Assembly: GCA_963575745.1 (NCBI GenBank)
Contig: CAUYUJ010001747.1
Span: 365,836-429,835, forward strand
Length of the DNA: 64,000 nucleotides
Direction: 5' to 3'
From: Prorocentrum cordatum
Lineage: Eukaryota; Sar; Dinophyceae; Prorocentrales; Prorocentraceae
Positions 6,085 to 30,067 of this stretch are shown here, in pieces. Made by a program: the position numbers and the translations under genes. The notes beneath the pieces are model-generated. The model saw only the letters and a program-made list of their open reading frames with translations. It had not been told where the DNA came from and did not search any database. Each line of letters begins with the position of its first letter. Position 1 is the first letter of the stretch.

Positions 6085-6096
6085 GATGAGGAGGAT

Positions 6097-6650: not shown

Positions 6651-6657
6651 CGTCATA

Positions 6658-7869: not shown

Positions 7870-9660
7870 TATAGAAGGGGAAACGCGGAAACGCAGAAAT
7901 CATTAATTCCATTTAGGTATTCAACGATTTGGGACCCTCAAAGGCTTCCAGGGGTCTTTTTTGGGAGGTGAGGGCGGTCTGAATTGTGGTCTGTTGTGCA
8001 AGAGAAGACCAGGGGCCAAACTTGAACAAAAAAATAAGGAATTTCGGGATTCCCATGTTTTTCGAGTTCCTCGGCGCTGTTCGGCGCTGTTTTTTGTTTG
8101 TGCCTCGCGGGTTTTGTTAGCCGGGCCCCTCAGGGGTGTGGGATCTTCCAGACCCACCGGGGGTTTGGATGCCTCCTGGAGGCCTGGACAGCCGTCGGAA
8201 GGGTGTCGCGGGCTGCGCGGGAGCGTGTTGGGCCGTTCTTTACGTTCTGGGGGCTCCTTGGGGTCGTCATGGGCTGTCCTTCGGCGACTTGGGATCTCCC
8301 CTGGGAAGCCAGGAGGCGCGGTACCGGCCAGATGTCAGGGGATGTGTAGGACCCCCGAGTAGGAGTCCCATTTTGAGAAAAAAAGAAAAAGGGGGGATTC
8401 TGGGAATTCCTTTTTTTATGAAAATCCTTGATCTTCGAGGGTTGGAAGCGGGAAAACGTGAGAAGGCGACAAACATTAGAAAAACAATTGGAAATCAACG
8501 ATTGTACCCTCTTTGGGCTCTCTCGGGCCTCTCGGGACGGCTCTCGCAGCTCTCTTGGGCTGTTCTTGGAGCCTCGTCGAGGTCTTTCTGGGGCCTCTCA
8601 GGGATCGGGGGTGTATTGGGGGCCTCTGGGTGGTCCCAGTGGCCTTTCCTGGTAGCCTCCTGCTCCCGCTCTTGGGCCCATCTTGGGCCTGTTCTGGGGT
8701 GGTCTTGGGCTGTCCTGGGCGCCTCTTCGGCAGTCTTGGAGCCTTCTTGGCCCGTCTTGAGGCCGTCCTGAGGGTCTTTTGGGTGGTCTTGGGGCGATAT
8801 TGGGAGCCTCTTCGGCGCTCTTGGACCGTTGGAAGGTCGAAAACGCGAGAAGCCAAAAACATTGAAACAAAAACAATGACAATCTACGATTTGGGCCTCT
8901 TCGGGCCGTCCCCGGACGCCTCTCGGACCTCCCTTGGGGTCTCTTTGAGGTTACCTGGGGGCCTCGAGAGCTGTCGGAAGGCTAACTTGGGCTGCTTGGG
9001 AGCGTTTTGGACCATGCTTTCGCATTCTGGGGGCTCCTGGGAGGCGTCTTGGGCCCTCCTGGAGCGCTGTGGAGGCCCACCGGAACGACAGGGGGAGCGG
9101 TACCGGGAGCGTTCCCGAGAAGTCACGGGGAGGTGTGGCACCCGGGGCCGGGGGGGGGCTCTATTGGGGTGCCTCTTGGGCGTCTTCGGGGCCTCTTTTG
9201 GTGTTTCTTCTGATCTCATGGGGGCTTGGGGCTTCTGGGGCGCTTCTTGGAGCCTCTTGGGGTCTCCTGGGGGTCTCTTGGGCCAAAAGGCGCGAATCTG
9301 GGGCACACTCGTCCCCGTCTTGTGCGCCGCCTGGGGGCGTTGTTGGGCGGTTTAGGCGCCTCGTGGGCCGTCTTGGCCCCCTCGTGGGCCGTCTTGGGGC
9401 ACTCTTGGGGGCATCCTCGACCGGCTTGGGTGCCTCTTGGGCCGTCTTGGACGCAGTGGAAGCCCAAAAGGCGACTACGCCAAAAATATTAGTTTTATCA
9501 TAGGAAATCGGCGATGTTTGCTTATTGGAGCTCTCTCGAGGTGCCTCTTGGGCGTCTTCGGGGCCTTCGGGGGCCTTCTTGGCGTCAGGGGAGTCGTCTT
9601 GAAAGGCGTCTGGAGCCATCGCTGCGGCCTCCTGGGGCCTCCCTGCAGCCTCTTGGGGCC
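7870..9660. repeat. Higher-order repeat: GGGGCCTCTTGGG arrays punctuated by AT-rich boxes
   Basis: Most of the stretch is built from degenerate 10-14-bp units such as CTTGGGGCCTCT and GGGCCGTCTTGGGG. An AT-rich box recurs four times (about 7878, 8448, 8831 and 9472). Each has a variant of AAACGCGAGAAG, then an AAAAACATTRAA-like run, then ATCAACGATTT just before the GC-rich units resume. Spacing is 570, 383 and 641 bp. Open frames here are glycine-, leucine- and serine-rich repeat translations, not genes. Confidence 0.75.
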
Positions 9661-13205: not shown

Positions 13206-13776
13206 CGAGCACAAGCTGCGCGGTGCCTTGGGCGACAGCAGCCCTTCGCCCGCCCTCCCGCGCGGTCCCGTTGCTGCCGGTGCCGCTCTCCATCGACTCG
13301 GCGAGAGAGACCTGCGCCGCACTCGCGCGGTCGCGCCGTGTCCAAGAGGGATCTGCGCGGAGCTGCGTCGAGGGCGACATGTCGCCCGCTCGCGCGGCGG
13401 CCTCCGGAGCTTGGGAGGGTGAGCACGTGCGCGCGCGCGCGCCGAGGCGGGAGCACCACGTTCGTGCGAGATCTGCGCGGCGCCAGAGCGAGAACGGCAT
13501 TTTCGTTCGTTCGCACGTCGACGACGACGTTCTAAAACTCAGCGCCGCGCTTACGCGGGAAAATGAGCGCTGCGTGAGGCGAGAGCGACGTTTCCGCCCT
13601 GTCGCGCAGGAAGCGCACCCGTCCCGCATTTGCCGCGCACATTGCAACGTCAGCGCCAAAAGTCCATGCTGATATCAACATGTAGACTTTACATATTTCC
13701 AGGTCGAGTGGAAGGATTGGGATTGGTGTCCACTTGGGCAGCTAGAAGGCACAGCAGGGATACATGTATAGATATG
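13206..13776. other. Flank of the outer retroelement, no gene recognised
   Basis: GC-rich to about 13660, then AT-richer unique DNA up to the first terminal repeat. Open frames are Arg/Ala-rich in all phases and look non-coding. Confidence 0.45.
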
Positions 13777-13864
13777 AAACATGCTTGCAGGGGTATGCTG
13801 AGCAGATCGTTGAACGCCGTCATTTTTCACTCTGTATTCATATGGGCTCAAGTTTTTCTCTCGG
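13777..13864 (+). repeat. Terminal direct repeat A1 of the outer element
   Basis: This 88-bp block matches 29811-29898 in direct orientation with 7 mismatches and no gaps (about 92 percent). It begins AAACATGCTTGCA and ends GGGCTCAAGTTTTTCTCTCGG. ORF1 starts 12 bp after it. The last third contains CATATGGGCTCAAG, which resembles the 3' end of the dinoflagellate spliced leader. Confidence 0.9.
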
Positions 13865-13876
13865 GAAGAACGTTTG

Positions 13877-14215
13877 ATGGCCCTGCGTGCCTACCGCGGC
13901 ACGCTGGCCCTGGCTGCCGCGTCGGCGCCTGGGCTAGCCTCGCTGCTGCGACACTCGGCGCAGTCCAACTTTCTCGCGGTGCTCTTCGGCGCTGAGGCCC
14001 AGCGGGCTGCGCGCGCCGTCGGGGCGGCGGTCAGCGGCCCAGGGGCCGTGCACCCCGAGGAGGGGAGCTGCCCAGTGGTCCCATACCCGCCGTGCCCCGA
14101 TCTCGTCTGCCCGGAGGCGCCGCCGTGTGCGCCTTGCCCGGCACTGCAGTGCCAGGCGTGCCAGCAGATCCCGGGCGACCTCGACCAGCCCGTTTGCATC
14201 GGCTGGGCCCTCAGT
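13877..14215 (+). pseudogene. ORF1 of the outer element, 5' part (interrupted)
   Basis: An ATG at 13877 opens a frame of 113 codons up to the insertion site. It starts with an Ala/Leu-rich stretch and then has a Cys/Pro-rich region (repeated C-P and P-C pairs, about codons 65-100) that could bind metal; I do not recognise a known domain. The codons CTC AGT (Leu Ser) at 14210-14215 are the copy of the target duplication on this side. The same two codons at 24035-24040 lead into the remainder of the frame. ORF1 precedes the gag-like region and may be an accessory or Gag N-terminal product, which is an inference from position. Confidence 0.65.
14210..14215 (+). repeat. 6-bp flanking duplication CTCAGT, left copy
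   Basis: CTCAGT directly abuts the left inverted terminal repeat and is found again directly after the right one at 24035-24040. It could be a target-site duplication, or the crossover sequence shared by element and target in tyrosine-recombinase integration. Confidence 0.8.
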
Positions 14216-14261
14216 GTAGGAGGAGTCGGCATGCAGGGGGGGCGGGCGCGGTGGGGGCGCC
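14216..14261. repeat. Inverted terminal repeat, left end of inner element
   Basis: GTAGGAGGAGTCGGC at 14216-14230 is exactly reverse-complemented at the right end (24020-24034). Similarity continues, with substitutions and a one-base gap, through a G-run and CGGGCGCG to about 45 bp. Confidence 0.9.
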
Positions 14262-14415
14262 CACAAATCGAGCCGCGCGTGCAGGGCCTCGACCCCGCCT
14301 GCTGCCGCAGTCGGTGGGAGCGGCGCGGCGCGAGGCTGCCCCCCGCGGGCGGCTGCGACGGGCCCAGGCCCGACGCACCGCCGCTTGGGCGGCCTCGCGC
14401 CACGCCTGCGTGCAG
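14262..14415. repeat. 154-bp direct repeat, outer copy
   Basis: It matches 14799-14952 at 153 of 154 positions by eye (one A/C difference in GCTGCCGC(A/C)GTCGG). The near identity implies a recent duplication or gene conversion. Both copies sit in the 3' non-coding end of the inner element, next to its terminal repeat, so they may be part of its replication signals. Confidence 0.9.
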
Positions 14416-14511
14416 CAGACAGGGCGGAGGGTGGGAGAAAGAACGCGCGCCAGGGAGGCACCCGCCGCGCGCGCGCGCGGGGCGCGCGCGCGGCGCCTCC
14501 TCCAAATGCAA

Positions 14512-14644
14512 ATCGCCTGCGAAGCGCACGCGCCGCGGGGGCAGCGACCCCCCCCCGCGGCGACGCAACCCCGGCGCTAGCAAATCACCTGCGAAGCGCA
14601 CGCGCCGCGGGGCAGCGACCCCCCCCCCGCGACGCGCAACCCTG
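14512..14644. repeat. 65-bp tandem duplication
   Basis: Two adjacent copies of a block beginning CAAATC(G/A)CCTGCGAAGCG and containing CGCGCCGCGGGG then a C-run. They lie between the two 154-bp repeats. Small length differences are in the C and G runs. Confidence 0.8.
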
Positions 14645-14794
14645 GCGCGCGACGGCGCGATGGCCCGCGCCTGCGCAGCGAGGCCGCGGTCGCGTCGCAC
14701 TGCCGCGCGCGCGACCTACGCGCAACCGTGGCCGATTTGTGCCCGCCCACAACGGTGAACGTCCGCGTCTGCGAGCGGACTTGCCGCCGTGGGC

Positions 14795-16643
14795 CTACCA
14801 CAAATCGAGCCGCGCGTGCAGGGCCTCGACCCCGCCTGCTGCCGCCGTCGGTGGGAGCGGCGCGGCGCGAGGCTGCCCCCCGCGGGCGGCTGCGACGGGC
14901 CCAGGCCCGACGCACCGCCGCTTGGGCGGCCTCGCGCCACGCCTGCGTGCAGACCCAATGCCACACGGCACGCAGGCGACACGGGCCGGCAACGCCGAAC
15001 GCGCGGGGGCAGAGCACGGGAGCCGTCGCGCGCACCCGCTCACGCACAGAAGCGAAACGTGGCGGCGCTGGCCGCCGGCGCCTAGCAGGCACCCTCGTCC
15101 GAATCCGACTCCAGCATGTGCGCCTGGCGCGAGCAGCGCGCCGCGGCGCGGGCGGAGGGCGCGTGGCCCCGCCTCCACGACCGCGTCCCTTTCAAAATCG
15201 TCACGGTCGAGATACGCCATGAAAGCGCAGGACCGCCACTCCCCGGCCGCGAGAATCTCGGCCAGCGTCGCGCCAGCCTCCTGCAGGTCCTTGGCGTGGC
15301 CCCTGCGGAGGTCATGCAACCGAAACAGGCTCGCCCCTTGGACACCGAGGGCAGCGAGCATCTCGCGCAGGGTCCGCAGCGCAGCAGCCACCGAGATGCC
15401 TCCGAAGAGCCCGCGGCCCAGCCCGCAACGCGCCACCCAGGGGCCCGGGGTGTGCACGGGGCACGTGGCGCGGCACGATGAGCACCAGCACTTCCGCGAC
15501 AGGCGACTGCCCTGCGGCCGGTTCTTCCGCCGCCGCAGCAGCAGCGTGAGCTCCGATTTGCCCAGCACTAGCGCCGCTTGAAAGGGCGGCGCGTCGCCGG
15601 CGTCGGCCACGCGCACGGCCGGCAACGCCTCGCTGGGAACACGCAACAAGAACGTGTAGGCGAAAAGGAAAAGCATCGACGCGCGGAGCCACTCGGGGCG
15701 GCGCGCTCCCAACTCGACCAGCGCGGCGACCGCGCTCTTACGGATGAACAAGCGCGGGCGCGGAGCCCAATCGGTCCGCGCCCGGACGGCGGCGCGCGCA
15801 CGCTCGACCTCGGGGCGGTCGAACACGGCGACGCAGACCCCAGTCAGGAGGCAGCCGATCTTAACGTAGCTGCAGTAATTTGCGCACGTCTCCCCGCAGC
15901 GAAAGAGGGCGCTCCAGGCGACCAGGTCCGCGCAGGCTGGCGGGAGCTGCATGCACGGGTATTTCAACATTCTGATGCAGTAGGCCTCCCAGCATTTGAG
16001 GCCGCTTCTCACGCTTGCGAGCGACCGTGCGCATGGTTGCAGCATAGCGCGAACGCGTTCCTCCTCCCGCCAGCGGGCCGCGCCCGCCGGATTGCGGAGG
16101 CGAGCAGCGGCCTCGGCGAGCGCCGCCCGGGGCCCGCGCGTTATTGGCAGCGCGACCGGCGCGCCCAGCTGGTCGAGGACGCTCGGGACGGGCGCCTCGC
16201 GAGCCACGGCGCGTGGGCATGCGCAAGCGCGCGGGGCCGATGACGCGCGCCTGTGGCGGCCCAGGGGGTGACCCCGGGGCGCTCGGCGCCGCGCGTCTCG
16301 CCGGCGACCGGCTGCGGGCGGGCGCGCGCCCTCCAACTGCCGAGCCCACGGCGACGGGCGCGCCTGCGAGGCGCACGCGCGGCGGGGGGGGGGGCCGCGC
16401 GCGCCAAAAAACCCTCGCCAGCCGAGCCTCGGCGCGCAGCAATCTTCGCGGCTCTGAATAATTCGTGCAGGACTTCGACATTGGCCTGCGCGGTGACCGG
16501 CCAACCTTCCAGGTCTGCGGCGTCTGCACTGGCGAGCTCGCAGGCTCGTGCGAAGCCGTTCTCAGCCAGGAAATCAGCAGCCCAGGCGACGGCCGTCCTG
16601 GGCGCTGTCGGGCGCAAGGAACACAATTCAAGGAATAACGACA
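14795..16643 (-). pseudogene. Tyrosine recombinase of the inner element
   Basis: This is the enzyme DIRS-like elements use instead of a DDE integrase, joining circular cDNA to the target. A minus-strand ATG at 16643 (MSLFLEL) starts an N-terminal helical domain, and the frame then shifts to the 569-codon frame 16504-14795. In that frame FLFAYTFLLRVPSE supplies the first catalytic Arg (codon 288, about 15643). HDLRRGHAKDL supplies the H-x-x-R box (codons 397-400). GEW gives the His/Trp position (423), and Tyr431 in FMAYLD (about 15213) is the likely nucleophile. The conserved fold ends near 15180; the rest of the frame runs through terminal repeats. All catalytic positions are present, so only the frameshift before 16200 argues against function. 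Confidence 0.85.
14799..14952. repeat. 154-bp direct repeat, inner copy
   Basis: Partner of 14262-14415. The two copies start 537 bp apart. It lies just beyond the recombinase coding region in the minus-strand sense and overlaps the run-on of that frame. Confidence 0.9.
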
Positions 16644-16778
16644 TGATGCCGCGCGGCGCGCCTGACAATGCGAGCGATGCGCCTGAGGCACTGGCCGCGT
16701 GCGCTCCGCTTGCGACAAAACGCGGGACCCTAGGATGACAAGCGCGGCGGCGCGCCGAACGCTGTGCCGCGCCCAAAC

Positions 16779-17890
16779 TTAAATATCGCAACGCCCCGAC
16801 GCACAAGATGGCACCCGGGCGCGACATGGCGCGCGGTTTAGCCGAAGAGGCGGGCCACAGAGAGAGCGCCCCAGGCATCCGCGTGCCAGAATTCTTCGTC
16901 GAGCCACGGGCGCGTGCGCACCGCGCCGATGCGTAGCAGGAGTTCGTCGTCCCCCCTGCGACACGCTGCGCCCGCGGCCAGCCCGCAGCACCGCGCGGCG
17001 CGCACGGGCGCGCCGAGAAGGCAAATCGGCCAGATTCTCAGCCGTGGGCACGCGGAAAACCGCGAGGTCAACGTCGAGCTCCACCGCGCGCCTCCACATG
17101 GAGTGGACGATGCACGAGTGGTCGAAGGATTTCGCGGCGCCCTTCCGCAGGCAAGACTCCGCGCCGGTATTGTCGTTGTAAATATGCAAGTCGCAACCTT
17201 GCACTTCCCCTGAGCGCAGCGAAGACGAGGGGCCGGACCTGCCCGCCGGCGCGGGCAGTCGCACGCGGAAGCAATGCCTGCAAAGGTGCACATGCCCAGC
17301 GCGATAGAGAGGAGCTCCAGCCCCTGAATCTGGTTGTCCCGGCGACGCTGGAAAGACGCCATCAAGGAATCCGGGACGACCATGGAAGTGAAACGGATGC
17401 CCGTGGCGGTGACGAGCACCGCGGCCACGCGCGGTGGTTGGCCCGACGCGTCCGCGAAGAGAGTTGCGCGAGGCCGCGCCTTGTCGGCCCACGGCCGCGC
17501 TTGGCACAAGTCCATGGCCAAGACCTCGCGCCACCACTGCAGGGCAAGCATCAACGGCTCATGGGCCTTCGATGCCCCGCGATGCGATTGCGCGTGCAAC
17601 GGCCTGCGAGCACGAAGCGCGGCGCCCCGCCCCCCCGGGCGCGCGGGGGCAGCGCCGCGCCTGAGGAGGGCGCGCCCCAGGCGGCGGAAGAGATGCGACG
17701 CTGCCCAGGCCAAGCCCCCGGCCAGCTTGGGCGATGCGCCTGCACAGCGAACGCAAGGTCCCGACACATTAGGGGGGACGCGCGAGCCGCCTGGCGCGAG
17801 GGCGCGCGTCGCGAGCGCCTTGCCGATGACGCGCTGCCACTTGGCGGTCTTCGCGGGTGCGGGACGCGCGCAGAACGCGCGTGGCAGCAC
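16779..17890 (-). pseudogene. RT connection and RNase H domain of the inner element
   Basis: After the RT palm the minus strand gives KLAGGLAWAASHLFRRLGRA, the conserved connection typical of DIRS-type and retroviral-like polymerases. RNase H follows: LFADASG (first Asp), then QIQGLELLSIALG (Glu). After a frameshift comes LHIYNDNTGAES (second Asp), ending with FRVPTAENLADLPSRR (last Asp). RNase H removes the RNA strand after cDNA synthesis. All four acidic positions can be matched but lie in two frames, so the copy is broken. Confidence 0.8.
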
Positions 17891-17949
17891 CTGGCGATGC
17901 GCGCAGCCGGCCGGCCAGCGCGTCGCGCCAAGGCCGCCCCGCCTTGATT

Positions 17950-19207
17950 TCGAGGCCGAGGATGACCAGCGGGGACCCCCAGGCGATCTTGTCCGGTGCC
18001 ACCGCGCCTGGGCCGAGCATCAGCTGAATTAGCTCCGCCAGCTGCGCTGCTGCGTGCTCCACCACTTCGGGGTGATCCGGCCCGAAATAATCATCCACGT
18101 ATCGCAGCGCGGCGATCCGCAAGAGCACGCGCGCCGCCTACGCGATGAAGGCACCCACTCGCGCCCAGCTGTGCACCGACGACGTGGCCCCGAAGGGCGC
18201 TGCCGCGTGCTGCGCCGCCCAGACCTGCCCGGCGGCGCTGAACGCGATCCAAGCGAACCGGCGGTGCTCAGCGCGAATGGGCACGCGACGAAAGGCAGCG
18301 TCGATGTCTGCCTTCCAGAGGGCGGGTGCCCGCCCCGCAACTTCCTGGAAGATGCGAGCTGCTTCGAAAAGCGCGTCCACGGCATCGTGGTGGAGCCGCT
18401 CCTGAGGCCGCGTCGCCTCGTTAATCCTAGCCTTGGTCATGTCGTCGACCAACCGGAGTTTCGAGGACCCGTCTTCACGGAGCTGCTCAACCGCAAACTT
18501 CGGAGCGATGACGGCCCCGTCCAGGCACGCGTCGCGGAGCGGCACCGGGCAACTGATGCGCCCCAGCTCGGCCTCGTCCCGTGTCTTGCGGAGGATGGCG
18601 TCGCCGTGCGCGCCGTCGCGGAGGCCACAGGAAATGTCGCGATGTGTCGACTCGGCGTTGCCGAGCAGCTCCGCGATGCCCAGACGGGGAGGGAACACCT
18701 GGGCTGCCGTGGCCTGACCGCGGGAGCTCGCCGACGAGGGGCGCCCCCGTCCTGAAGAATTCCACGCAGCCTGGGTCGCAGAAGGCAATGCGCTCCGCGA
18801 TCTCTGCGCAGAGAGGCCCGTTCACGCGCTGTGCGACGCGCCGCATGGCGGGGTCCACCCCCCGGAACCATTCTTCCACGGCGCCACTGGCCCGGAGAGC
18901 TCGATCCCTTTCGCGAGCCGCGAGTTCGCCCTCGCGGAAAGCCACCGCGTCGGCGGGGGCGGTCTGCGCGGCCCACCGCACTGCCTCAGCGGCCGTGGGC
19001 GGCAAAGCCGAGGCCGCGGCGGGCCGCCACTTGCCCCAGAGCGCGGGGTCGCCGTCCAGCGCCCTTGCCAGAAAGGTAAGTTTCTCCGCGTCGCCGCCGC
19101 TACAGCCGCCGGCCGCGACGCAGATGTCGCGCCACGCGCTGTCGCTGCAACGCCGAGACCAATCGCTCCTGAATTTCGGCCCTGGTGGCGCTGGCGGCGC
19201 CGGCATC
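17950..19207 (-). pseudogene. Reverse transcriptase of the inner element
   Basis: The frame can start at ATG 19207 (MPAPPAPPGPKF). It has a helical N-terminal extension ending CVEFFRTGAPLVGEL, a motif typical of this group just before the fingers. After a frameshift near 18690 the palm reads KLRLVDDMTKARIN, then motif A ALWKADIDAAFRRVPI, motif B FGATSSVHSWARVGAF and motif C RYVDDYFG, with LGLEI as the following strand. An in-frame TAG (plus-strand 18138-18140) lies between motifs B and C. Motif C has the intact Asp pair, unlike the outer element. Confidence 0.85.
18138..18140 (-). other. In-frame TAG between RT motifs B and C
   Basis: The same reading frame holds motif B just upstream and YVDD just downstream, so a single stop separates two conserved motifs. 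It is either a point mutation or a base-call error. Confidence 0.75.
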
Positions 19208-19587
19208 ACCTGACGCGCGCCGCTGGCTCGCGCGCGACCGAGAGCCGGGAAAGCGCGCCTTGCGAGATTTGGCGACGACGCATGCAGTCCCAGGCGCCGC
19301 CCGCTTTCGCGCGCCAGATGCGGGCGGCGGGGGCGGCGCCGGCACGGCAAGCATTGCGCGAGATCGCAAACCGCGGACGTGGACAAGGCGCCAAAGCGTA
19401 GCGAAAAGCGCCCTCGGAACGCACGCTGCCCCGCGGAACTCCCCCGCACGCCCCGCCCAGGCTGGCCGCGGCCAAGCCGGGCACTCGCAGCGCGGCGCGG
19501 AAAGCGAAGCGGCCTCCGCGGCAACAGCGCACGCGGCATGTCCCAGCACGCGGGTGGGGGTCCTGCGCACGGCGCACGGGGCCATTT

Positions 19588-21291
19588 TTAGCGACAAAGC
19601 GTAGAACTATCGGGCGCGCCCGGGTCACGGCCCCGACCCGTCGCGGGCGGAGGCAGGCTTTTGCGCGCGAGCCGTTCTGACGGCTGAAGGGGCTCCACCC
19701 CTACGGGGGCTCGCGCGCGCCCTGCCAGGGCGGCGCTCAGCGCTGCGCCGGGCGCGGCGGCGTCCGTGCCTTCCTCGTGTCCTTTTTCTTCCAATCGCTG
19801 CCCCACGAGCGCTCGCGCTTCTGGCCCTTCGGCCAATCGCTGCCCCAGGAGCCGCTGCTCCAGCTGTGCGCGGCGCGCCACGGCTGGCTGGCGCCGCCCG
19901 CCCCGCGCGCTTTCTCGGGAGCGCGGGCCGCCGGTGCCTGCGCGCGCGGAAACGGCGGAGAAAGGTGGCAGAAGCGAATCCGCGCGGCGCGACGCTCGCC
20001 GTCGCGTGGGTGGCGCCGTCTTCTTTGTCGCAAGCATCCCGCGCCAGCTGTAGGGCGCGCGGGTCGACCCGCAGGATCGTCTTCCCCAGCTTGAAATCTG
20101 GGTCCCCCGAGCGTAGCTGCTCGGCCCATAGCTGCCACGCGCCGGCACAGACGCAGGGCGCCGCGCAAGCACGAACGCAGGGGCGCGCCTTCCGCGCCTC
20201 CTCGTCGCACACGATACCGAGGTGCACGCGGCGCTTCGAGGCCGCCGCCTGCGCGGCAACGCGCGGCGAACAGAGAGCGACGAGAAATCGCGCGCGTGCA
20301 GCCTGAACCGCCACCTTCAAGCAGTTGTCGCGATGCGCCTGCACCTCAGCCCACGTGAGCTGGCCCGTGGCGACCAGCGCGACCATGTACCTGCCGCGCG
20401 CGGCGCGATAACAGGCAGGCGCGCGGGGGGGGCGCGCGACGGGCAGGTGGCGCCGGTTCCAAGCCAGTTGCCACTGGCAGAGGGTTAAGTAGGCCTTCTT
20501 CTCGGGCCCTTTCTTCACCGCCGCCACTTCCTGCGGGGCGAGCGCCCGCGCGCGGGCCAGGCAACGCGCGCGCGGCGCGAGCCTTGGCGAGGTCACGAAT
20601 GTCCTTGCTGGCGCCGGACGATCCGTCAGCCTCCTCTTCGAAATCGCGAGGGCCCGAGCGGGCCCACTCGGGCACCCACTTGCGGATGTCCGAGTACAGG
20701 AAGACGCGCGCTTCCTCGCTGGATTCCTTCTTCTGCCGCTTCAAGACTTCCGCGTTCAACGCGTCAAGCATGTCGGAGCTACCGGCGCACGGGACCAGAT
20801 GCGAGAACCAGCGCGCGCGCGCGCGAGCGCGCCTGGGCCAGAACTCTTGCGGGAGGTTGGCCAGCGACGCCTTGCCGAGGAGAGGGCCCAAGAGTACGCG
20901 GGCCGGCTTTTCCTGCGAACGCGCCGCGCGGGGCCACGCGAGCCCGAGATCGCGTCGAGATCGCTTGCGCCTCGCTGGTGCCCGTCTTGAGCGCGGCCAA
21001 GAGGGCGGCCGCGTTCTCCGCCGCCGAGGGCGCTGGAGGGGCGGCCGCCGCCGAGCCCCCAGCCACCGGCGCCGGCGTGCTCGCCGCGGCGATCCCCGCG
21101 CGCACGAGGCGCTTCTGCGCGGCGTCGAGCTCCTTGTCGACAAAAGAGAAATCCTCGAATGCCGCGCCCTCTAAATCGGCGATCGTCGCCACACCTCGGC
21201 CCTTGAGCGCGGTCACCGTGGCTTCGAGCCAACCGGCCTCGTGCGCCGACGCGCCGTCCAAGGCGCCAAGAAAACTGCCGAGGTCGCCCAT
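19588..21291 (-). pseudogene. Gag-like region of the inner element
   Basis: A minus-strand ATG at about 21291 (MGDLGSFLGAL) starts a helical region with GWLEATVTALKGRGVATIADL, resembling the small SAM-like domain at the start of YR-element proteins. Two frameshifts later the sequence contains EVAAVKKGPEKKAYLTLCQWQLAW and LTWAEVQAHRDNCLKVAVQAA, conserved-looking and alpha-helical, then ends in an Arg/Ala-rich tail. Position upstream of RT suggests a nucleocapsid role. I do not see a zinc knuckle. Confidence 0.55.
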
Positions 21292-21512
21292 CGCGAAGAG
21301 CGGTGCCGCGCGGCGCGAGACAGCTTGGGCGCCCGAGCTCGGCGAGCTGCCGGTGCGAGCGCGCACAGGACGGAGACTGCGCGGGGCCCCAAGAGGTGGC
21401 GGCCAGGCCTGCGCCCCTCACGAGAGGGGGAAGACCAGGGCCTGCGCCCAACCCAAGAGAAGGCCCGGGAGCTCTCCCAAGAAGAAGCCAGAGCCCAGCC
21501 AGACGGGGTCTT

Positions 21513-22160
21513 GGGGCCTGCGCCCTACCCGACTCAGGGATCAACGGGATGCGCCCTCCCCCTGTGCACAAATGGGCCCTGGGGCCTGCGCCCTACCCAA
21601 GACAGGGATCAACGGGATGCGCCCGCCCCCTTTCGCACGATTGGGTCCTGGGGCCTGCGCCCTACCCAAGACACGGTACCAGGGGCCAGCGCCCTCCCCC
21701 ACGCAAGACGAGGAGCCAGAAGCCAGCGCCCTGCCCGAGACAAGGCCCGCGGGCCGACCCGCGAGGAGAGCGGTGCCCAGCAAGACGGGGTCCAGGGGCT
21801 TGCGCCCTACCCAAGACAGGGATCAACGGGATGCGCCCTCCCCCTTTCGCACAGTTGGGTCCTGGGGCCTGCGCCCTACCCGACACACAGGGATCAACGG
21901 GATGCGCCCTCCCCCTTTCGCACCGCTGGGTCCTGGGGCCTGCGCCCTACCCAAGAGAGGGATCTACGGGATGCGCCCTCCCCCCTTCGCACCATCGGGC
22001 CCTGGGGCCTGCGCCCTACCCAAGACAGGGATCAACGGGATGCGCCCTCCCCCTTACGCACGATCGGGTCCCGGGGCCAGCGCCCGACCCAAAATACAGG
22101 CATCCTAAGGCCTGCGCCCTCCCCCGCACGAAACTTGGCCCTGGGGCCTGCGCCTTGCCC
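21513..22160. repeat. 69-71-bp minisatellite, about 9 units
   Basis: Units begin CCTGGGGCCTGCGCCCTACC and contain GGGATCAACGGGATGCGCCC. Starts at 21861, 21932, 22001 and 22070 show a period of 69-71 bp. Because most units are near 69 bp, long open frames with 23-residue repeats appear in several phases; I treat these as by-products. The array lies in the leader upstream of gag of the inner element. Confidence 0.9.
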
Positions 22161-22164
22161 GAGA

Positions 22165-23235
22165 CCAGGAGCGCCCTTGCCGCGAGCCTGGCGCACAGCC
22201 TGGCCGAAAGGCCAAGGCGACGCGAGCGAGGTGCCCACAGGGCCCGCGCCAGCGAGGGCCAGCGCCCAAGAGAGACGAGCCACCGGCAAAACGACGAGGG
22301 AGCAGGCAGGCAAGCAGGCAACCGCCAGGCACGAAGGCAGAAGCAGCAAGGCAGGCGCCAAGCGGCAGGCGGCGGAAGGGAAAGCAAAGGGGGCACGCAG
22401 GGGCGACGGCGACGGGAAAAGCGAGGCAACGCGACGCCGAGCGAGCGAGCAAGCACGCCGACAAGCACATGCCAGGACGACCCCACGCGAGGCAACAGCG
22501 ACAGCCGAACGCGAGGGCGACAAGGCGACGACAAAGGCGGACGCGAAAAAGGACGCGGCGACGAGCAAACACAAGGCCTACAACGACCGCGCCGATTCCA
22601 TCGCGGGCCGCTGCCCCTTCCCGGGACTCTCAAGAATCCTCCGGGCCCAGTCGGCCTCGCAGTCGGCGCCGGCGTCGCGTCGCCCGCGAGCGCCAGCCGG
22701 CGGGCGGGCTGACCTTGTTGCGCATGTTGGGCGCGAGAGACCCGCGCGGGCCTCGCGCTGTGCCCGCGCCCCAGGGCGAGGGCCCAGGCCCTTGTAGCCT
22801 CCCGCGCTGACGCGATGGCCTCGCGCGCGGCGCAGGAGCGGGCGCCGCCGACCGTTCGGTCCGGTTCCGCGCACTTCTCATGCGAGAACGCAAAGCGCCC
22901 CATGCTGCTCGCGCGCTGTGCGCGCTGAGCACTGGGATGCAGTTGCGACGGCCGCGCGTTCAAGTGGAAACCGCAGCTTAAGTTTCCATTCCCGCGCGCG
23001 GGGCGGGGCATGAACTTACAGACGCGCCGACGGTCGAGAACTCGCGCGCGCCCGCGCCTGCCATGTTGGGCGTGCGCGCTGGGCCCGGAAATCTGCGCCT
23101 CGGCCGCCCGATGCGCCCCAAAAATCGCCCCGCCCCCCCCCCCGCCCCCCTCCCCCTCAAAACTCTTCCGCGCTCCTGGAAAAACCATGCCGCCGAGGCG
23201 GGGGCTCGGGCCGCGGCCTGATGGTCCCCGGGGCA
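22165..23235. other. 5' leader region of inner element, no domain recognised
   Basis: Ala/Arg/Lys-rich plus-strand frames and Arg/Pro-rich minus-strand frames. AGGCAGGC and GCGACGC motifs recur. It may be untranslated leader of the minus-strand element. Confidence 0.4.
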
Positions 23236-23415
23236 CAGGGGAATCAAAGGAATCAGTACGGAATCAGTACAGAATCAAAACAGAATCGGCACAACTGCGA
23301 CCCCTGATTCTAGCGGAATCAAAAGAATCAGTACGGAATCAATACGGAATCAAAGGAGGAATCGGCGATGGAACCAGAATCGGCCAGAACGGGGAAGTAG
23401 GCCAGAATCGGTGCC
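23236..23415. repeat. GGAATCA / CAGAATC cluster
   Basis: About a dozen copies of (G/A)GAATCA, many as CGGAATCAGTA or CAGAATCGG, spaced 9-20 bp and in one orientation, about 0.6-0.8 kb inside the 5' end of the inner element. A binding-site array or short minisatellite are both possible. Confidence 0.7.
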
Positions 23416-23988
23416 AGAACCCATGGAGAGAGGCCTTTTTCCCGCGAGTTCATTGCGGCGGGTCCGCGGCGCGGGCGCGCCGCGCGACTTCGCTGGTTCA
23501 GCGAGGCGCGCAGTCGGCGTTCAGAGTGAACAGGTTGTTTTAAGGGCGATATCCTGGCGGCGCGCTGGCGCATTGCGCATTTGCGCATTCCTGGCGGGCT
23601 GTTTGAGGGCGACCTGGCAACGTCGGCCGAATGGCCCGCAAGTACCGCGCGGCCGATCGCGCGCCCCAAGCGGTCACGTCGACCGCCGTGTGCCGCGACG
23701 GCCGCGCGCCCCGGGCCGCGCCATTGCCGCGTTGGATTGGACGGCAGCATATCGCGCATGTCGTTACATGCATATCGCGCGTGTCGAGCCAGCAGCAATC
23801 GCTCCCAGAAGCAGCCTTGACAGGCGCCCCGTGCCCGTTGTCGCCCGGTTCCGATCCAAATCATAGTTTCTTAGGATGCGCTTGCGCGAATGTGAGCGCG
23901 CGGGCAAGCAACGCGCGCGCGCTTGGCGCAGCCTGGGAAATCCAACATGGAGCCCCCCAGGGGCGCGGGGCGCCGGCGAAGCCTCCGC

Positions 23989-24034
23989 CCGCCTCCCGCG
24001 CGCCCGACCCCCCCCGCAAGCCGACTCCTCCTAC
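23989..24034. repeat. Inverted terminal repeat, right end of inner element
   Basis: Reverse complement of the left end; the outermost 15 bp are identical (GCCGACTCCTCCTAC ending at 24034). Confidence 0.9.
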
Positions 24035-24040
24035 CTCAGT
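24035..24040 (+). repeat. 6-bp flanking duplication CTCAGT, right copy
   Basis: Directly follows the right terminal repeat and pairs with 14210-14215. Confidence 0.8.
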
Positions 24041-24235
24041 GCGTGCAACCTGGCGCTGACCGCGGCGGCGGGCTGCTCCTGGCGCCGGCCTCGCCAGCGC
24101 GAGGCGCCCGAGGCGCGGCCCGAGCAAGCCCCGCCCACCGCCGTGGAGGAGGACGCCGACGCCACCGCGCTGAGGACCGAGGCGTTCCGCCGGCGGAGAG
24201 CGATTTGGGATCGGGCAGTCTTACGCACCCTCTAA
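24041..24235 (+). pseudogene. ORF1 of the outer element, 3' part
   Basis: This continues the frame broken at 14215 for 64 codons to TAA at 24233. The first codons (Ala-Cys-Asn-Leu-Ala-Leu) follow the Leu-Ser shared by both flanks. The end is acidic, then basic (EEDADATALRTEAFRRRRAIW). The gag-like ATG follows 6 bp after the stop. Confidence 0.65.
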
Positions 24236-24241
24236 GGAGGC

Positions 24242-25636
24242 ATGGCGCAGGTTGGCGACTTGATCCTGATAAGGTGCAACTTGGACGGGGGCGACGAGCC
24301 CGGCTCGTCGAGTCGCTCTATCACGAAGCCCTCATCACGGGAGCGAAGCAAGGGCTGCCACGCGTGGTGTCCATCGGCACGCCTGGCGGCGACCACTATG
24401 ACATCGACCTGACAGTTGGTGAAGATATCTACTCTGTGCACTGGCTCGGCGCGCAGGGCGCTTTTCATCCTGGGATTCGGAACGATCGATGCTACAGGCC
24501 CTCGAGGAGGCCGACCGCCGCCGCGGTGAGGGCGCTCGTCCGCGACAGCCTGATCATGCTCGGCGGCGTCGCGCAGGATCGCCCCCCCGTGCGGGTGGCA
24601 GCCGCCCCTGGGGACCAGGTCGGGGGCCTCGCTAGGGCGCCAGCGCGGCAATCTGGGCCCGTGCAGCGGAGGGCTCCCCCGGGGCGGGTGTGGGTCGTCG
24701 CCGAGGACGAGGGCTCCCTCCGCCGTGGTGAGATCGTGGATGAGCTCACGCGGGAAGCCCATGTCATCGGAGACAAGGCTTTGACGCCGCTGGAAGGGCG
24801 GCGACACCGTGATGCTGAGGCAGATCGATCGGAAGGATTTCGATGATTACGTTAACGATGATTCGAGGGTGCTCCCAGTCCGTTTCGACGGCACTGGCCG
24901 CCGCAGGAGGACGTTCCCCGACGCCGTCGGACGCATGATGGATGAGCTGCCCGAGGGCGGTCTTGGCCTTACGACGCATGGTGGGATGCCCCCCTGTCAC
25001 TGGGGCAACGCGCCGCCCCTGGGATACCTCTGTGTTTGTCGTGGTTGAGCTCGTGGGCGAGATGGTGGTGGGTGTCTGTTGGGACGATGCCGCTTCTCGT
25101 TATCCCCAATGGTTGTGGTCTCGTGCCATTTAACCAGTACAGCAGAGTGAGGGCGGCATTGACCTTGCGGGCCCTGGCACTTGCTGAGATCGGCTTCGGA
25201 AAACCGCCTCCTTGTCTCAGACTCCTATCACGCAGTCTGAGCACTGGAAGGTGGCTGCCAAGATCCAGGAGGGGGACAGGTGGCAGTATGAGCACGAGGC
25301 GCTCTCCCACATCTTGGAGGCGATGGCGTGCGTAGACCTGTTCAACGTGCCCAATCTGAAGTCGGGCGAGCTGATCGCCAGGAGACTCCGGCTCATCGAG
25401 GATGCGCGCACTCATGCTGGCGCTGGAGGCGCAGCGGAGCCGACCGCTACATGGGCTGGTCGTCGCGGAGGATGGGAGTGGTCATCGACCCGCAGCTGCG
25501 CCAGCGCGTGGCCGACAACCTCCGCGGCGAGGCGCAGGTCGCCAAGGAGGCGAGGAAGGCCAAGGAGGAGCGCCGGCTGCGCAGGCACACTGGCGGCGGC
25601 AAGACGGATGGCAATAACGACAAGGAGCGCCCCTGA
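24242..25636 (+). pseudogene. Gag-like protein of the outer element
   Basis: ATG 24242 (MAQVGDLILIRC) begins about 460 codons now spread over several frames. Recognisable blocks in order are ARLVESLYHEALITG; TPGGDHYDIDL (about 24390); VWVVAEDEGSLRRGEIV; MLRQIDRKDFDDYVNDD (24809); RVLPVRFDGTGRRRRTF; and GDRWQYEHEALSHILEAMAC (about 25276). It ends in a basic Arg/Lys tail (EARKAKEERRLRR) that could bind nucleic acid. These blocks fit the gag-like ORF of dinoflagellate YR elements as I recall it, so the label is family knowledge plus position, not a search. At least four frameshifts. Confidence 0.6.
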
Positions 25637-26040
25637 TGGGGCGGGGGCGCGGGGGCTGGCCAGCCCGCGCCCCCTCGGGCGAGATGAGGGCCGCCCTCGG
25701 ATTGCAACGTCTGGGCTGCTCGGGCCAACGGCGTCAGAGCATCGTCGAGTCCCTCGCCGAGAGCTACTTCCTGTGCCTCCTGTCCCGGCCGCTCCTCCCA
25801 CGATTCCTGGGGCCTCGCACTGCGCGCGGAGGAGGCCGGCGCGTCGCCGCGGGGTCGAGGAGAGGGTCAATGAGGCACTCGCGGCTTTGAATGAGATGAG
25901 CTGCGCGGGTAAGGGATCAGAAACCCTTCGGCCGTCACTGGCGCAGCTCACCTCGCGGGGGGCGTTGCTCGAGCTGGCCCCCCCCCTGTCATCGCCCGCC
26001 AATGCAGTCGCCGCGGGGCCGCCGACGAGCTCCTGGCCGG
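25637..26040 (+). other. Spacer between gag-like and RT regions of the outer element
   Basis: Probably coding before decay: one frame reads VNEALAALNEMSCAGKGSE (about 25868). No domain recognised. Confidence 0.4.
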
Positions 26041-27205
26041 CGTGGTCGACCGCGCCGGGGTCGACCAGGGTGCCGCAGTGAAGCCGTGCAAGCGCTCTCT
26101 GGTGTCGATGCCAGCGGTTGGGGAGAGCTCTGCTCCGCTGACCTCGGTGGCCGGTGAGCTGGAGAGGGACTTGCTACAACGGCCTGCAGAGACGACGCTG
26201 GCAGGCCCCGACGACCCGGGTTGGAGGTCTGAGAAGATGAGTTTGATCATGCCCTACATGGACGAGGTCTCGCGTTCGGATAGGTCTCAGTATTCCGATT
26301 TTCCTTGGACCTGCACGGCGCATCGCTGATTTCTTGGGCGTGCCGACCTCGCGAGATTTGCGCGCCATTTTTCCTTGCCGAGAAGAATGGCGACCTCTGC
26401 GTGGCGATGGGCTGCCGCGTCAGCAACCTCCACTTTCGCCCCCCCCCCCCCCGCATCTCGATGCGGGGACAGGGGGTGCTTGGTCGAGGCTGGAGAGGCC
26501 CGAAGGCGCGGGCCCACTTCGTACAGCCGCAGCAGACGAGAAATAGTATTTTCACACCATCCAGAACCATCCGGACCTTCAGCCCTTCTTCTGCTTGCCG
26601 CCGATCTCGCGCGGCGAGGCGCGGACCTTCGTGAGCGGTCTCGAAGGGCTGAGCGATCGCGAGCCTGTCTGGCCCATGATTCGGTCTGTTCCTACGGGGT
26701 GGAGCCGGGCGTTCTATGTTGGCCAGAAGATCTTGGAGAACCTCATCGACGAGGCGCTGAGGCGCTTCGCTCAGTGCGCCCTGCTGAGGGGTGTCGGGCC
26801 GATTCCGGACGTCGCTTCGGAGCTGGGCGCGCTGCCGCACTGCGACAACCTCAACGTCTTTGGCCTGGACAAGAGCGCCGTGCAGCTGGTCAAGGACAGG
26901 GTGGTCTCTCACCTGAGGGCGAGATGCTTCCCCGTCCACGAGGAGGTCGACGCCTCGGTGAGGGTCACCTCCCTCGGCTGGTGCATCGGCGGCGACAGGT
27001 GGAGCGTCTGCAACAAGCCTGAGCGGGCAGAGCGGCTCGCGAAGGTTTGCAGCGTCATCGAGAGTGGTGCCCGTCTCTCGGGCCATCCAGTACAGAGGTG
27101 GGCTGGCCACGTCGTAGACTTCTTCCTGATTCGCAGGGAGGGCTTGGCCGCCCTCAGGTCCACCTACGACTTCATTGACAAGGTTGGCTCGGGCAGGCAA
27201 CGAGC
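26041..27205 (+). pseudogene. Reverse transcriptase of the outer element
   Basis: The fingers segment FFLAEKNGDLCVAMGCRVSN with LHFRPPPP (about 26360-26450) matches the F-x-x-K-x-x-G-x-x-R-x-x-x-D/C-x-R-x-x-N-x-x-F region. Motif A reads D-E-K-stop-Y-F-H: Asp at 26535, TAG at 26544-26546. Motif B is in PVWPMIRSVPTGWSRAFYVG. Motif C reads ALPHCDNLNVFG, with Asp at 26844 and Asn at the second catalytic position. VTSLGWCIGG is the next conserved strand. A frameshift separates fingers and palm. The second Asp replaced by Asn is discussed as a finding. Confidence 0.75.
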
Positions 27206-28100
27206 GTGGCCGTCGCTGCGCAAGAGGCCCGCTGGGCGAGGGGCCTCATCGGAGTCTGCGCAGCCGACCTTACGATGCGTTGGCATCCACAAGCTACCAT
27301 GACAGACGCCTGCGAGACTGGCGCAGGCGCGTCTGCAGTTTTTGAGCCTTCCAGCGTTGCGGCCGCGGGTCGCGTCTCAGGGCGCTGGCGCTATCGTGGC
27401 AAGCGCCCTCTGTCGCAGCCCCGTCGCAGCGCACTCGGAAAACTGGGCGTCTTCCCGGACCCCAGCTCCGTCATCCCAGAAGGTTCAGGAGGCTCCTTGG
27501 AGATGCTCGAGAAGAGCCCGCACTTCCAGGAGGCCCCCGATAGCATGCTCAAGGAGGAAATCTGGAGAGGGGATATCTCTACGAGGTTCAGGGACGTCGA
27601 GGGGATGCCCGCTCTGGAGGCGAGGGCTATTGTCATGGGCGTCAGGCGCGGTCTCAGGTCCATCGAGGGGTTCAAGAGGCCCCACCTCATCATGGGGGAC
27701 CAGCTGGGCAACGCCATGGCCTTTGGGAAGTCGCGGGCTGCGTCCTTCTCCATCCTCAACCTCATCCGTCGTGCCTCGGCTCTGGCCTTAGCTAGCTGTG
27801 CCAAGTGGCATTTTCATTGGGTGCCTTCTGAGAAGAACACCGCGGATGGCCTCTCACGGCGATGGGGGGGAGGCCCGCGCGCTGGGCAGGGCCACCCCCC
27901 CAGCGCGCGGGAAGCCGCCCCCCCGCCGCCTCGGGCTCGGGCTTCCGAAGCCGCCGCCCTCGTCGAGAGGCGCGGCGCGGACGGCGGTGGCCACGCGCTC
28001 GTCAGGGATCACCTCGCGACTGCATCGCGAGGCCGCTGGAGTGCCGCTGCCGCAGCTGGAAGCAGCCGAAGCGAGAGGAGGTCCAAGAGGGCCGCGACCT
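27206..28100 (+). pseudogene. RNase H domain of the outer element
   Basis: In the 380-codon frame 27206-28348, DACETGAGASAVFEP supplies the first acidic position and MPALEARAIVMGVRRGL the Glu. HLIMGDQLGNAMAFGKSRA supplies the next Asp, and WHFHWVPSEKNTADGLSRRWG the C-terminal Asp. This is the order of an RNase H fold as found after RT in retroelements. The same frame runs on without a stop into the recombinase N-terminus, so RT, RNase H and YR were probably one polyprotein. Confidence 0.7.
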
Positions 28101-28990
28101 TCGGCACATTCGAACCTCCGGCTGCAGCAGGCCAGGTTCCCATTCCGGAGTCGCATGCCATTGCGAGCGCGACGGAGGGCCTCTACAATGTTTGGTTCAA
28201 GGAGCTCCTGGCCTATACGATCTCGATCGGGTGCGCCCTGGACTCCGTGAAGAGCGTCGACGCTGCCATGACGGACTTCGCGGACTATCTATTTCTAGAG
28301 GGCTTCGAGAAGGCCGACCTGCTCAAGGCGCACGCCGCGGCGGCCTGACATCTTGCGGATTTGTCAGCACGGGGAAAGCCGGGCCCCCCGCGTTTCCAGA
28401 GAGCGCTGAAAGGGCTACACCGACCTCGGCCCAGGCGTCGCTCCGGCGCCCATCCCGCGGGGGATCGCGTGCTGGATCGCCAGGCAGTTGGCCGAGAAGC
28501 TGAACTCGGTCGTCGCTTGCCTGGCCGCCCTCGCGACGTTTACCGCGCACCTGCGGCCGATCGACCTGCGCTCCCTGAGGGGGGGGGGACCTCGCGCCGC
28601 CGTGCGCGAGCAGTCGGTGGTGGGCTCTGAACCTCCACCCGGCCGCGCGTGGCCACAAGTCGAAGATCGGCCTCTTCGACGAGGTCATCCTGCTGGACGC
28701 GAAGTACCTGCCAGGCCTCGGCGCCGCGGTGGCGACGCTCGAGACGGGCGACCCTGGGAAGAAGCTGTTCGACATCGAGCCCTCGGCCCTCCTGGCGCTC
28801 TGGGAGGCAGCGACGCGCCCGCTAGGTTTCCCGGCCGACGCCAAGTGCGTGCAGTGCCAGCTCCGGCACGGCGGCCCCTCCCACGACCGCCCCGCGGGCT
28901 GCCGCGCGCTGCCGGAGATCCAGCGCCGAGGCCGATGGCTGGCCGAGGGCGCGACGAGGCGCTACGAGGCGAGCGCAAGGGTTCAGCAGG
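28101..28990 (+). pseudogene. Tyrosine recombinase of the outer element
   Basis: The N-terminal core-binding part is in the RNase H frame (SVDAAMTDFADYLFLEGFEKADLLKA, about 28255-28330). The frame then breaks. The catalytic part continues with TAHLRPIDLRSL (first Arg, about 28550) and KIGLFDEVILLD. In the final frame come QLRHGGPSHDR (Arg at codon 46, with Cys where His is common), RGRW (Trp, codon 70) and RRYEA (Tyr79, about 28964), the probable nucleophile. The layout matches other dinoflagellate YR elements I know. The methyltransferase-like domain follows in the same frame. Confidence 0.75.
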
Positions 28991-29049
28991 AGTGGACTCG
29001 CCTCTCGGACGACCAACAGGGCCTCGCCCGCAGGGCAGTCGCCTGGATC

Positions 29050-29811
29050 GAAGATCGGGTGCGCTCGCTGCCCCTGCCCGCCGCCAGGCCGCCTTCTAGC
29101 CGCGCTGCGTCCTCAACCTGCGCCGGGTGCGCGGGCGTCAGCCAGGCGCTCGCGCGCAATAGCATCGAAGGCTCCGCGCGGGACGCCCTCTTCAGCCAAG
29201 AGGCCGACCTTGCGAGCCTGGACAAGATGAGGTGGCTGGCCAGGCGCGCGACGCAGTGCGGCATGGCGCAGCATCGGCGCCAGCTGGCCGCGGCAGGCTG
29301 GAGGCAGGGCCTGGCGGCTCGCTGCCTCGGAGTGCGGGTCGCCATCGCATGTGCGACGTGGTCCAGGGTTCGCGACCTGCCGCCCAGACCGAAGATCCGC
29401 GATGACAGCGAGAATTTGTTTGGTTTTCCAAATCTGTCCGCTGCTGATGGAAGAGACGTTGAGCTTGGCAATGAAATTGCTGATTCGCTTTGTATTTTTC
29501 TAGAGGCTGTGCTGCGTCTGCGCATTCCAGTCGTCATTGAGAATCCTCGCCTGTCTAGGCTCTGGCTTCATCCCAAAATAATTCGCTTGTGGAACATGTC
29601 CTCTGCAGAATTTCTCGCGTTTGACCCGTGCGGTTTTGGAGCCCGTTGGAGAAGGTCCACTGGTCTCGTAGCGCGGCACTTCCCTGAGCTTGCCCAGTAC
29701 TCCCGCAGGTGCTCGGGACGCAAAGGCTTGTGTAGCTTCACAGGCACACTAGCCCAGCCCAGCCCTGAAATACCTGATAGTCTGGCAGGAAATGAGAGCT
29801 GGGAAGCATAA
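29050..29811 (+). pseudogene. Cytosine-5 DNA methyltransferase-like domain fused after the recombinase
   Basis: In the frame that ends with TAA at 29811, CAGCAGVSQALARNSIEG (codons 131-148) resembles the AdoMet-binding motif I. ACATWSRVRD (207-216) resembles the P-C catalytic loop, with Pro changed to Ala and Cys208 kept. PVVIENPRLSRLW (267-279) resembles the E-N-V/P motif VI. FDPCGFGARWRRST and a CSFTG segment follow. In C5 methyltransferases the Cys attacks C6 of cytosine. Retroelements carrying cytosine methyltransferases have been reported in dinoflagellates. The middle of this domain is shortened and scrambled, so activity is unlikely. An alternative is a related methyltransferase-like fold without this chemistry. 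Confidence 0.55.
29747..29810 (+). repeat. Direct repeat B1
   Basis: A 64-bp block starting CACTAGCCCAGC and containing CTGGCAGGAA matches 30004-30067 with about 9 differences. B1 overlaps the last codons of the methyltransferase-like frame and abuts A2. Confidence 0.8.
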
Positions 29812-29898
29812 AACATGCTTGCAAGGGAATGCTGAGTAGATCGTTGAATGCCGTCATTCTGCACTCTGTACTCATATGGGCTCAAGTTTTTCTCTCGG
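29811..29898 (+). repeat. Terminal direct repeat A2 of the outer element
   Basis: Partner of 13777-13864. It begins at the end of the coding frame. Confidence 0.9.
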
Positions 29899-30003
29899 CC
29901 CGCCATCCACCCCCTTCTCGTCCTTCTCAAATTTAACAGGCTTGGAATGTCACCTGGGAGTGCTTCCAGGTCAGTTGTCTCGGCTCTGTCGCGGTCTCCC
30001 GTT

Positions 30004-30067
30004 CACTAGCCCAGCGCCGCCCTGAATGACCTGATAGCCTGGCAGGAATATGAGAGTTGCGAAGCGT
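30004..30067 (+). repeat. Direct repeat B2
   Basis: Partner of B1, separated from A2 by 105 bp of unmatched sequence. It marks the likely right limit of the outer element. Confidence 0.75.

Follow-up and report, generated by a model that had tools for sequence, protein, structure and literature searches.

Evidence for three mobile elements nested within one another in the genome of the dinoflagellate Prorocentrum cordatum

Results

The outer retroelement YR-A and its interrupted ORF1

The 64,000-nucleotide stretch of the Prorocentrum cordatum genome analysed here (GenBank assembly GCA_963575745.1, contig CAUYUJ010001747.1, positions 365,836 to 429,835 of the forward strand; hereafter the window, with a GC content of 63%) contains a tyrosine-recombinase (YR) retroelement, YR-A, which is very probably interrupted by a terminal-inverted-repeat (TIR) DNA transposon that is itself interrupted by a second YR retroelement, YR-B. 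An initial annotation of the window had read 14216–24034 as a single YR retroelement inserted in the first open reading frame (ORF1) of another; comparison with the assembled genome (4,128,499,153 bases in 21,875 contigs) resolves this interval into a TIR element in two pieces, at 14217–14261 and 22582–24033, and YR-B at 14262–22581. A minus-strand YR element does lie inside the plus-strand ORF1 of YR-A, as had been proposed, but the inverted repeats and the target-site duplication (TSD) are those of the separate DNA transposon. The identities of the elements and the base-exact joins between them rest on other genomic copies and on empty sites.

YR-A occupies 13775–30067 on the plus strand (about 16.3 kb, including a 9,825-bp insertion that comprises the insert and one copy of the TSD) and was delimited by its split direct repeats, its paralogs and a YR-type ORF, with the end bases read directly off the sequence. 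Its layout is A1-body-B1-A2-B2: repeat A1, the left terminus (13775–13864), is identical to A2 (29809–29898) at 82 of 90 positions, and B1 (29747–29807) is identical to B2, the right terminus (30004–30067), at 53 of 60 compared columns, the right edge of B1 and the edge of B2 being likewise read from the sequence. The stop-to-stop ORF at 28579–29808 (plus strand), which from its motifs we take to encode a tyrosine recombinase, has homologs P0021–P0023 (E 2.2e-65 to 2.0e-10) that share the motif LRH.GP..DR...RRGRW...RYE. This ORF continues at 29100–29808 (ENPRLSRLW...FDPCGFG...) into a further C-terminal part that the three homologs do not have. Neither the YR nor the reverse transcriptase (RT) of YR-A gave a Pfam match in the window copy, the RT being read by eye only.

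On the plus strand, ORF1 of YR-A runs through 13814–14215 in a stop-to-stop reading, and the frame left of 14215 resumes past 24040, as initially annotated, with the right part at 24041–24235 ending in a TAA at 24233–24235. A search with the outer sequence 13774–14215 gave 25 genome matches, among them the window itself and short terminal-repeat matches, and ten pieces around the insertion site were fetched, nine of which cover it (L063, which begins past the site, was not counted). All nine paralogs are contiguous at the site and read the same across it, bearing out the empty site that the initial annotation had predicted for the outer ORF1; CCTCAGTG stands at the site in six of them, CCTCAGCG in two and CGTCAGCG in one. 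In five paralogs the match to the right flank resumes immediately, with the next base, and in the remaining four only a few bases away. The insertion had also been called frame-preserving, on the grounds that 9,825 bp is a multiple of three. The number is indeed divisible by three, as would happen by luck one time in three, but this is arithmetic without biological content: the inserted DNA stops the ORF1 frame at 14756, and removing an insert together with one TSD copy always gives the frame back.

Two further observations concern YR-A. In L060, one of the four paralogs whose match resumes a few bases away, 14 bp are missing just past CCTCAGTG, which may be chance or a footprint. Separately, some 175 bp at 24974–25148 form an additional insert that is missing from other YR-A copies, in five of which the two matches overlap by 17–22 bases at the insertion point; the same piece occurs on five other contigs at 90–93%, is flanked by diverged copies of a repeat some 21 bp long (GAGGGCGGTCTTGGCCTTACG / GAGGGCGGCATTGACCTTGCG) and has the look of a short interspersed nuclear element.

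A TIR element with an 8-bp target-site duplication

The inverted repeats at the ends of the insert form 27-bp arms at 14216–14242 and 24008–24034 with 25 of 27 positions matching; the ends had been set one base too far out on either side, and the TIR element as a whole spans 14217–24033. The 14-mer TAGGAGGAGTCGGC is found exactly twice in the window, both times at these ends, and with up to two mismatches it has seven matches in the window against 0.66 expected, a number reached in none of 100 shuffles. In the genome, the 15-mer end occurs 80 times in forward and 98 times in reverse orientation, compared to 35 and 34 for a reversed control, so that part of the single 15-mer matches may be chance. 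Besides the window, at least 16 inverted pairs of the 15-mer lie about 1.5 kb apart among the matches listed, and the 16 that were fetched (L009–L024) are members of one family, 1,503–1,513 bp long as first bounded. These intact copies align to window positions 14216–14264 and about 22581–24034 and not to the 8.3 kb in between, and comparison with them defines, on the plus strand, a left piece of 45 bp (14217–14261) that carries the left TIR TAGGAGGAGTCGGC, and a right piece of 1,452 bp (22582–24033) that carries the right TIR and is 93–95% identical to intact copies (blastn; 13 of the 16 among the matches listed). The copies L009 and L022 are 99.87% identical to each other, pointing to at least one recent jump of the element. 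L003, which has the TIR 15-mer without the 1.5-kb element, was excluded from all counts, and L005, whose far end lies outside the fetched piece, was left unscored. No coding region was detected in the 1.5-kb element, which is a DNA transposon, apparently non-autonomous, and hAT-like in the length of its TSD.

The CTCAGT that had been noted on both sides of the insert does flank it on both sides, but as part of an 8-bp rather than a 6-bp duplication: from flank comparison and the TSD length of the family, CCTCAGTG is present at 14209–14216 and again at 24034–24041 (plus strand). In the 16 pairs recovered by the search with both ends, the 6-mer is preceded by C in 16 of 16 and followed by G in 15 of 16; these near-invariant flanks arose because the outermost G was fixed at both ends in the search, so the search pattern itself had selected them and the reading of a 6-bp TSD was dropped. 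When the same copies were re-bounded at TAGGAGG, 13 of the 16 showed a perfect 8-bp TSD. Copies found through one end agree. L006 and L007 match at 8 of 8 positions, and partial flanks match in L008 (seven bases) and L004 (two bases). From a one-end sample of 20 copies, six were dropped (five that lacked a second end, one of them consisting entirely of N, and a sixth whose end was spurious), and the 14 scorable copies comprise 12 that match at 8 of 8 positions and two at 7 of 8, with A, C, G and T all found at the outermost base. Since this base varies between copies together with the flank, it belongs to the target, and the TSD is 8 bp. The expectation that other copies would have ends identical to GTAGGAGGAGTCGGC was therefore partly contradicted, as they carry TAGGAGGAGTCGGC preceded by any base. 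A small methodological lesson follows, in that fixing the outermost base at both ends had disguised an 8-bp TSD as one of 6 bp with invariant flanks.

The inner retroelement YR-B

YR-B (14262–22581, minus strand, 8,320 bp) was delimited by other genomic copies, by its termini CACAAATCGAGCC and GGCCTAC, and by the empty site in the TIR element. The interior 14262–22581 has matches at 17 further places in the genome, a lower bound given that 18 of 333 first-look candidates were scored; 12 of these places match nearly the whole query at 97–98%, and the remainder cover query positions 1–7887, 7–7353, and 966–8312 plus 1–882, with two shorter. None of the copies compared runs on into the TIR element within the flank examined. 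On the left, most of them have CACAAATCGAGCC at their edge, where L035 and L039 deviate, and the flanks differ between copies; on the right, past the point at which the window copy stops, they carry a second 364-bp repeat that closes with GCCGTGGGCCTAC, and here too the flanks differ.

On the minus strand, the family has the layout A1-body-B1-A2-B2, with both A and both B repeats present in 14 of 15 copies (L032 has a single A within the piece examined). In the window, B2 forms the 3' terminus (14262–14415) and differs from B1 (14799–14952) at one of 154 positions; A2 (14435–14798, 364 bp) lies between them, and its second copy is found at the far end in 14 of the 15 other copies compared. The join of A2 and B1 at 14798/14799 (CCTAC-CACAAATC) is identical to the two element termini set end to end, which may reflect a circular or tandem intermediate. 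At 22570–22581 the body (...ACAAGG) passes directly into the last bases of A1 (CCTAC, or GGCCTAC). Because these last bases are kept, the 5' end here probably reflects an internal deletion near the window-right end, which would have left only 5–7 bases of A1, rather than a ragged truncation, and the description of the copy as 5'-truncated was replaced once they had been seen at the join. Twelve other copies carry 0.6–1.2 kb of sequence in the 5' region concerned.

The insertion of YR-B into the TIR element could likewise be placed to the base. In all 16 TIR-element copies, GGCGCC/AACGACC or a close variant runs on without a break, showing that YR-B was inserted without gain or loss of bases; at this insertion, the one in the window, GGCGCC and AACGACC are joined exactly in the TIR-element copies and there is no TSD. 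An 18-mer across the right join of YR-B and the TIR element has a single occurrence in the genome.

Tandem arrays were also observed. A 69-bp array of 8.4 copies lies inside YR-B at 21506–22092, and the copies L038 and L039 pass from the region of this array straight into A1, which may mark it as a hot spot for deletions. Elsewhere in the window are a CATCAT array (48 units, 56319–56608) and a 92-bp array (5.6 units, 58123–58623); both flanks of the YR-B copy L029 contain sequence that by eye resembles part of the 92-bp unit, reverse-complemented.

Coding content of YR-B

On the minus strand, YR-B is predicted to encode a tyrosine-recombinase domain in a stop-to-stop ORF of 588 residues at 14798–16561 (core at about residues 143–464), as judged from its predicted fold and its family. 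The ORF has 20 relatives, including P0003 from P. cordatum, which is 79% identical over 63% of the query. The AlphaFold model has a mean predicted local distance difference test score of 63.7, with 187 residues at 90 or above, and a Foldseek search of this model against the PDB returned Cre and its derivative Tre as the best matches (E 5.8e-8, target-normalised TM-score 0.60–0.62). Profile matches are weaker, at E 0.007 to Cre, and Pfam Phage_integrase is matched weakly in 5 of the 21 family members. Within the family, H-D-.-R-R-G-H-A is invariant and W442 nearly so.

Further into the body, the minus-strand ORF 18141–18821, together with a YVDD stretch past its stop, resembles a reverse transcriptase. 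The RT stretch has approximate bounds of 17928–18497, with RYVDDYFG at 18081–18104, and was assigned from this motif and from RVT_1 in relatives. The ORF has 14 relatives (P0024–P0037), of which P0024 from P. cordatum is 95% identical over 47% of the query; RVT_1 was matched in 11 of the 15 RT-family sequences scanned (best E 1.4e-6), the window copy itself being unmatched, and a PDB search with the family profile gave no match. An in-frame stop at about 18138 separates two RT blocks, so the window copy of YR-B is not intact. The stretch at 17010–17461 (minus strand), in two frames, is presumably RNase H-like, from motifs read by eye (LFADASG..., IYNDNTGAE..., ADLPSRR), and P0003 carries most of its second half joined to the YR.

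Pfam scans, which covered stop-to-stop readings and whole frames with X at stops (for the YR-B interior, the minus strand only), detected no RT, RNase H or integrase domain in the window copies of either YR element, and weak rows for Pilus_CpaD and MbtH were taken as chance. A methyltransferase is present in DIRS elements and absent in Ngaro elements; no Pfam methyltransferase profile was matched here, but as the RT was also unmatched, this absence means little. An Rfam scan over the window returned nothing at gathering score.

Relative ages of the three elements

If the repeats of YR elements are identical at insertion, the mismatches between them (A1/A2 8 of 90 and B1/B2 7 of 60 in YR-A; B1/B2 1 of 154 in YR-B) correspond to a per-lineage divergence of about 4.4–5.8% for YR-A and about 0.3% for YR-B. 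The divergence of the window TIR element (terminal branch 0.038, 23 private changes) falls between the two. The window YR-B was compared with 12 of the 15 other copies, omitting L038, L039 and L040 as broken or short, and 40 of its 6,008 comparable sites carry private changes. With short repeats and weak tree support, these values can be used for order and not for dates.

Discussion

Our data describe a locus at which the order of three insertions can be read, because empty sites in other copies locate both inserts with single-base precision. The order YR-A, then TIR element, then YR-B is supported by the nesting itself, with the divergences in agreement, and YR-B probably arrived after the TIR element had landed in ORF1 of YR-A. 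According to this model, YR-A with its split direct repeats would first have entered an ATAC-rich stretch, its tyrosine recombinase presumably integrating a circular complementary DNA. The apparently non-autonomous 1.5-kb TIR transposon, with a transposase that would be supplied in trans, would then have been pasted into ORF1, duplicating the 8 bp CCTCAGTG. Finally, YR-B, of another family and on the opposite strand, would have integrated 45 bp from the left end of the TIR element with no base gained and none lost, its 5' region and most of repeat A1 being deleted later or lost on the way in.

Several observations weigh against parts of this model. Three of the 16 TIR-element copies bounded at both ends have no perfect in-register TSD (L024 matches at 7 of 8 positions, L013 at 6 and L015 at 3), and no transposase turned up for the element, the genome not having been searched for the hAT transposase PF05699. 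The label hAT-like accordingly rests on TSD length and a partial match of the terminus. The hAT terminus follows the rule YARNG and the hAT TSD the pattern nTnnnnAn, yet the element misses the former, TAGGA having an A at the fifth base, and departs from the latter, since by hand count 11 of the 28 perfect sites have T at position 2. The window YR-B has no A1 except for its last bases, so the split-repeat layout is that of the family and is not whole here; its 40 private changes exceed those of each of the 12 other copies compared (11 to 39), so that it does not rank as particularly young within the family. For the TIR element, the terminal branch sets only a maximum on how long ago it landed, and its grouping with L013 has a support of only 0.76. 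Finally, the joins are known from assembled sequence. As a separate observation, L015 has three extra bases (CCA) between the right TIR and the repeat of the left-flank 8-mer.

Among the alternatives, the one that survives best is a compound jump, in which YR-B entered a TIR element elsewhere and the resulting 9.8-kb unit then moved into ORF1 of YR-A. The nesting alone is compatible with such a history, and the TIR ends and TSD would look alike. However, the right junction is found once in the genome and no donor was seen (removal by cut-and-paste or a mutation in the 18-mer would be possible reasons), the window holds the only inverted pair about 9.8 kb apart among the 15-mer matches listed, and YR-B, with 40 private changes in 6,008 sites, is less diverged than the TIR element around it, with its terminal branch of 0.038. 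We therefore regard a compound jump as unlikely, and retain successive insertion of the TIR element and YR-B.

An assembly artefact joining repeats is a much slighter possibility. The genome is rich in repeats and some of the fetched pieces run into N (L041, L095), but the perfect 8-bp TSD, the exact joins at both levels and the unique right junction are what insertion predicts. Still harder to sustain is the initial picture of one 9.8-kb YR retroelement with TIRs and a 6-bp duplication inside YR-A. It accounts for the inverted repeats, the direct flanks and an interior that encodes a minus-strand YR retroelement; against it, copies of the interior begin at 14262 and have no TIR-element sequence in the flanks examined, the ends recur as a 1.5-kb element that lacks the interior in all 16 copies examined (chosen as inverted pairs spaced about 1.5 kb), the duplication measures 8 bp, and no 9.8-kb copy with the same ends was seen among the copies compared. 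We regard this picture as refuted. Least credible of all is an autonomous 9.8-kb DNA transposon from which the 1.5-kb elements would derive by internal deletion: miniature inverted-repeat transposable elements (MITEs) often arise by internal deletion, and the two share their ends and 93–95% identity over about 1.45 kb (among the matches listed), but this reading is refuted by copies of the extra 8.3 kb, which have their own termini and lie in varying flanks away from TIR elements, and the stretch encodes an RT and a YR with no transposase seen in it. The three-layer nest thus remains the reading that we adopt.

As regards the class of the TIR element, 8-bp TSDs are found in hAT, P, Merlin and some other superfamilies, whereas Polinton and other superfamilies have 6-bp TSDs and were ruled out by the TSD length. 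The element is like hAT elements and MITEs in its 8-bp TSD, and differs from them in its length of about 1.5 kb and its very G-rich ends. We give a small chance to its being a non-autonomous branch of a dinoflagellate DNA-transposon lineage outside the named superfamilies, a reading suggested by the 8-bp TSD, the TAGGAGGAGTCGGC terminus, the G-rich ends and the lack of fit to the hAT terminus rule. The terminus TAGGAGG is near the TAGGGTG with which hATm elements begin (5'-TAGGGTG; PMC6004678). Merlin DNA transposons, also reported in dinoflagellates, have TSDs of 8 or 9 bp and TIRs with a conserved terminal 5'-GG-3' (PMC8101967), so that the TIR element resembles them in TSD length and differs from them in its TAGG terminus. 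Dinoflagellate introners, in which the introns of P. cordatum are reported to be enriched, are borne in introns, have short inverted repeats at both ends and are discussed as non-autonomous DNA transposons (PMC10666404); unlike them, the TIR element is 1.5 kb long and sits in a retroelement ORF. No published description of the TIR family was found in titles and abstract openings, a coverage that leaves most subscription papers outside.

YR-A and YR-B both fit the split-direct-repeat kind of YR element (PAT or Ngaro). PAT elements, a group of DIRS, have repeats in the order A1-B1-A2-B2 and Ngaro elements also carry split direct repeats (PMC4157794); SymbioDIRS-Dnmt3 elements of dinoflagellates are described with an A-coding-B-A-B layout (PMC5890265). 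The A1-body-B1-A2-B2 order of YR-A and of the YR-B family is like that of these elements, and YR-B resembles split-repeat YR elements also in having its RT and YR on one strand and no TSD at the insertion that was checked, differing from them in that the window copy is almost without A1. The RT of the window copies, undetectable with Pfam, agrees with the remark that RTs of Symbiodinium DIRS elements align poorly with Pfam (PMC5890265). Nested mobile elements are common in such genomes, and what is described here is ordinary biology resolved with unusual clarity. For a dinoflagellate genome with poor annotation, the locus further allows two families to be cleanly defined, the TIR element with its 8-bp TSD and YR-B with its split direct repeats and exact termini. 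All three are known kinds of mobile element, stacked three deep in a dinoflagellate, with both inner joins exact to the base.

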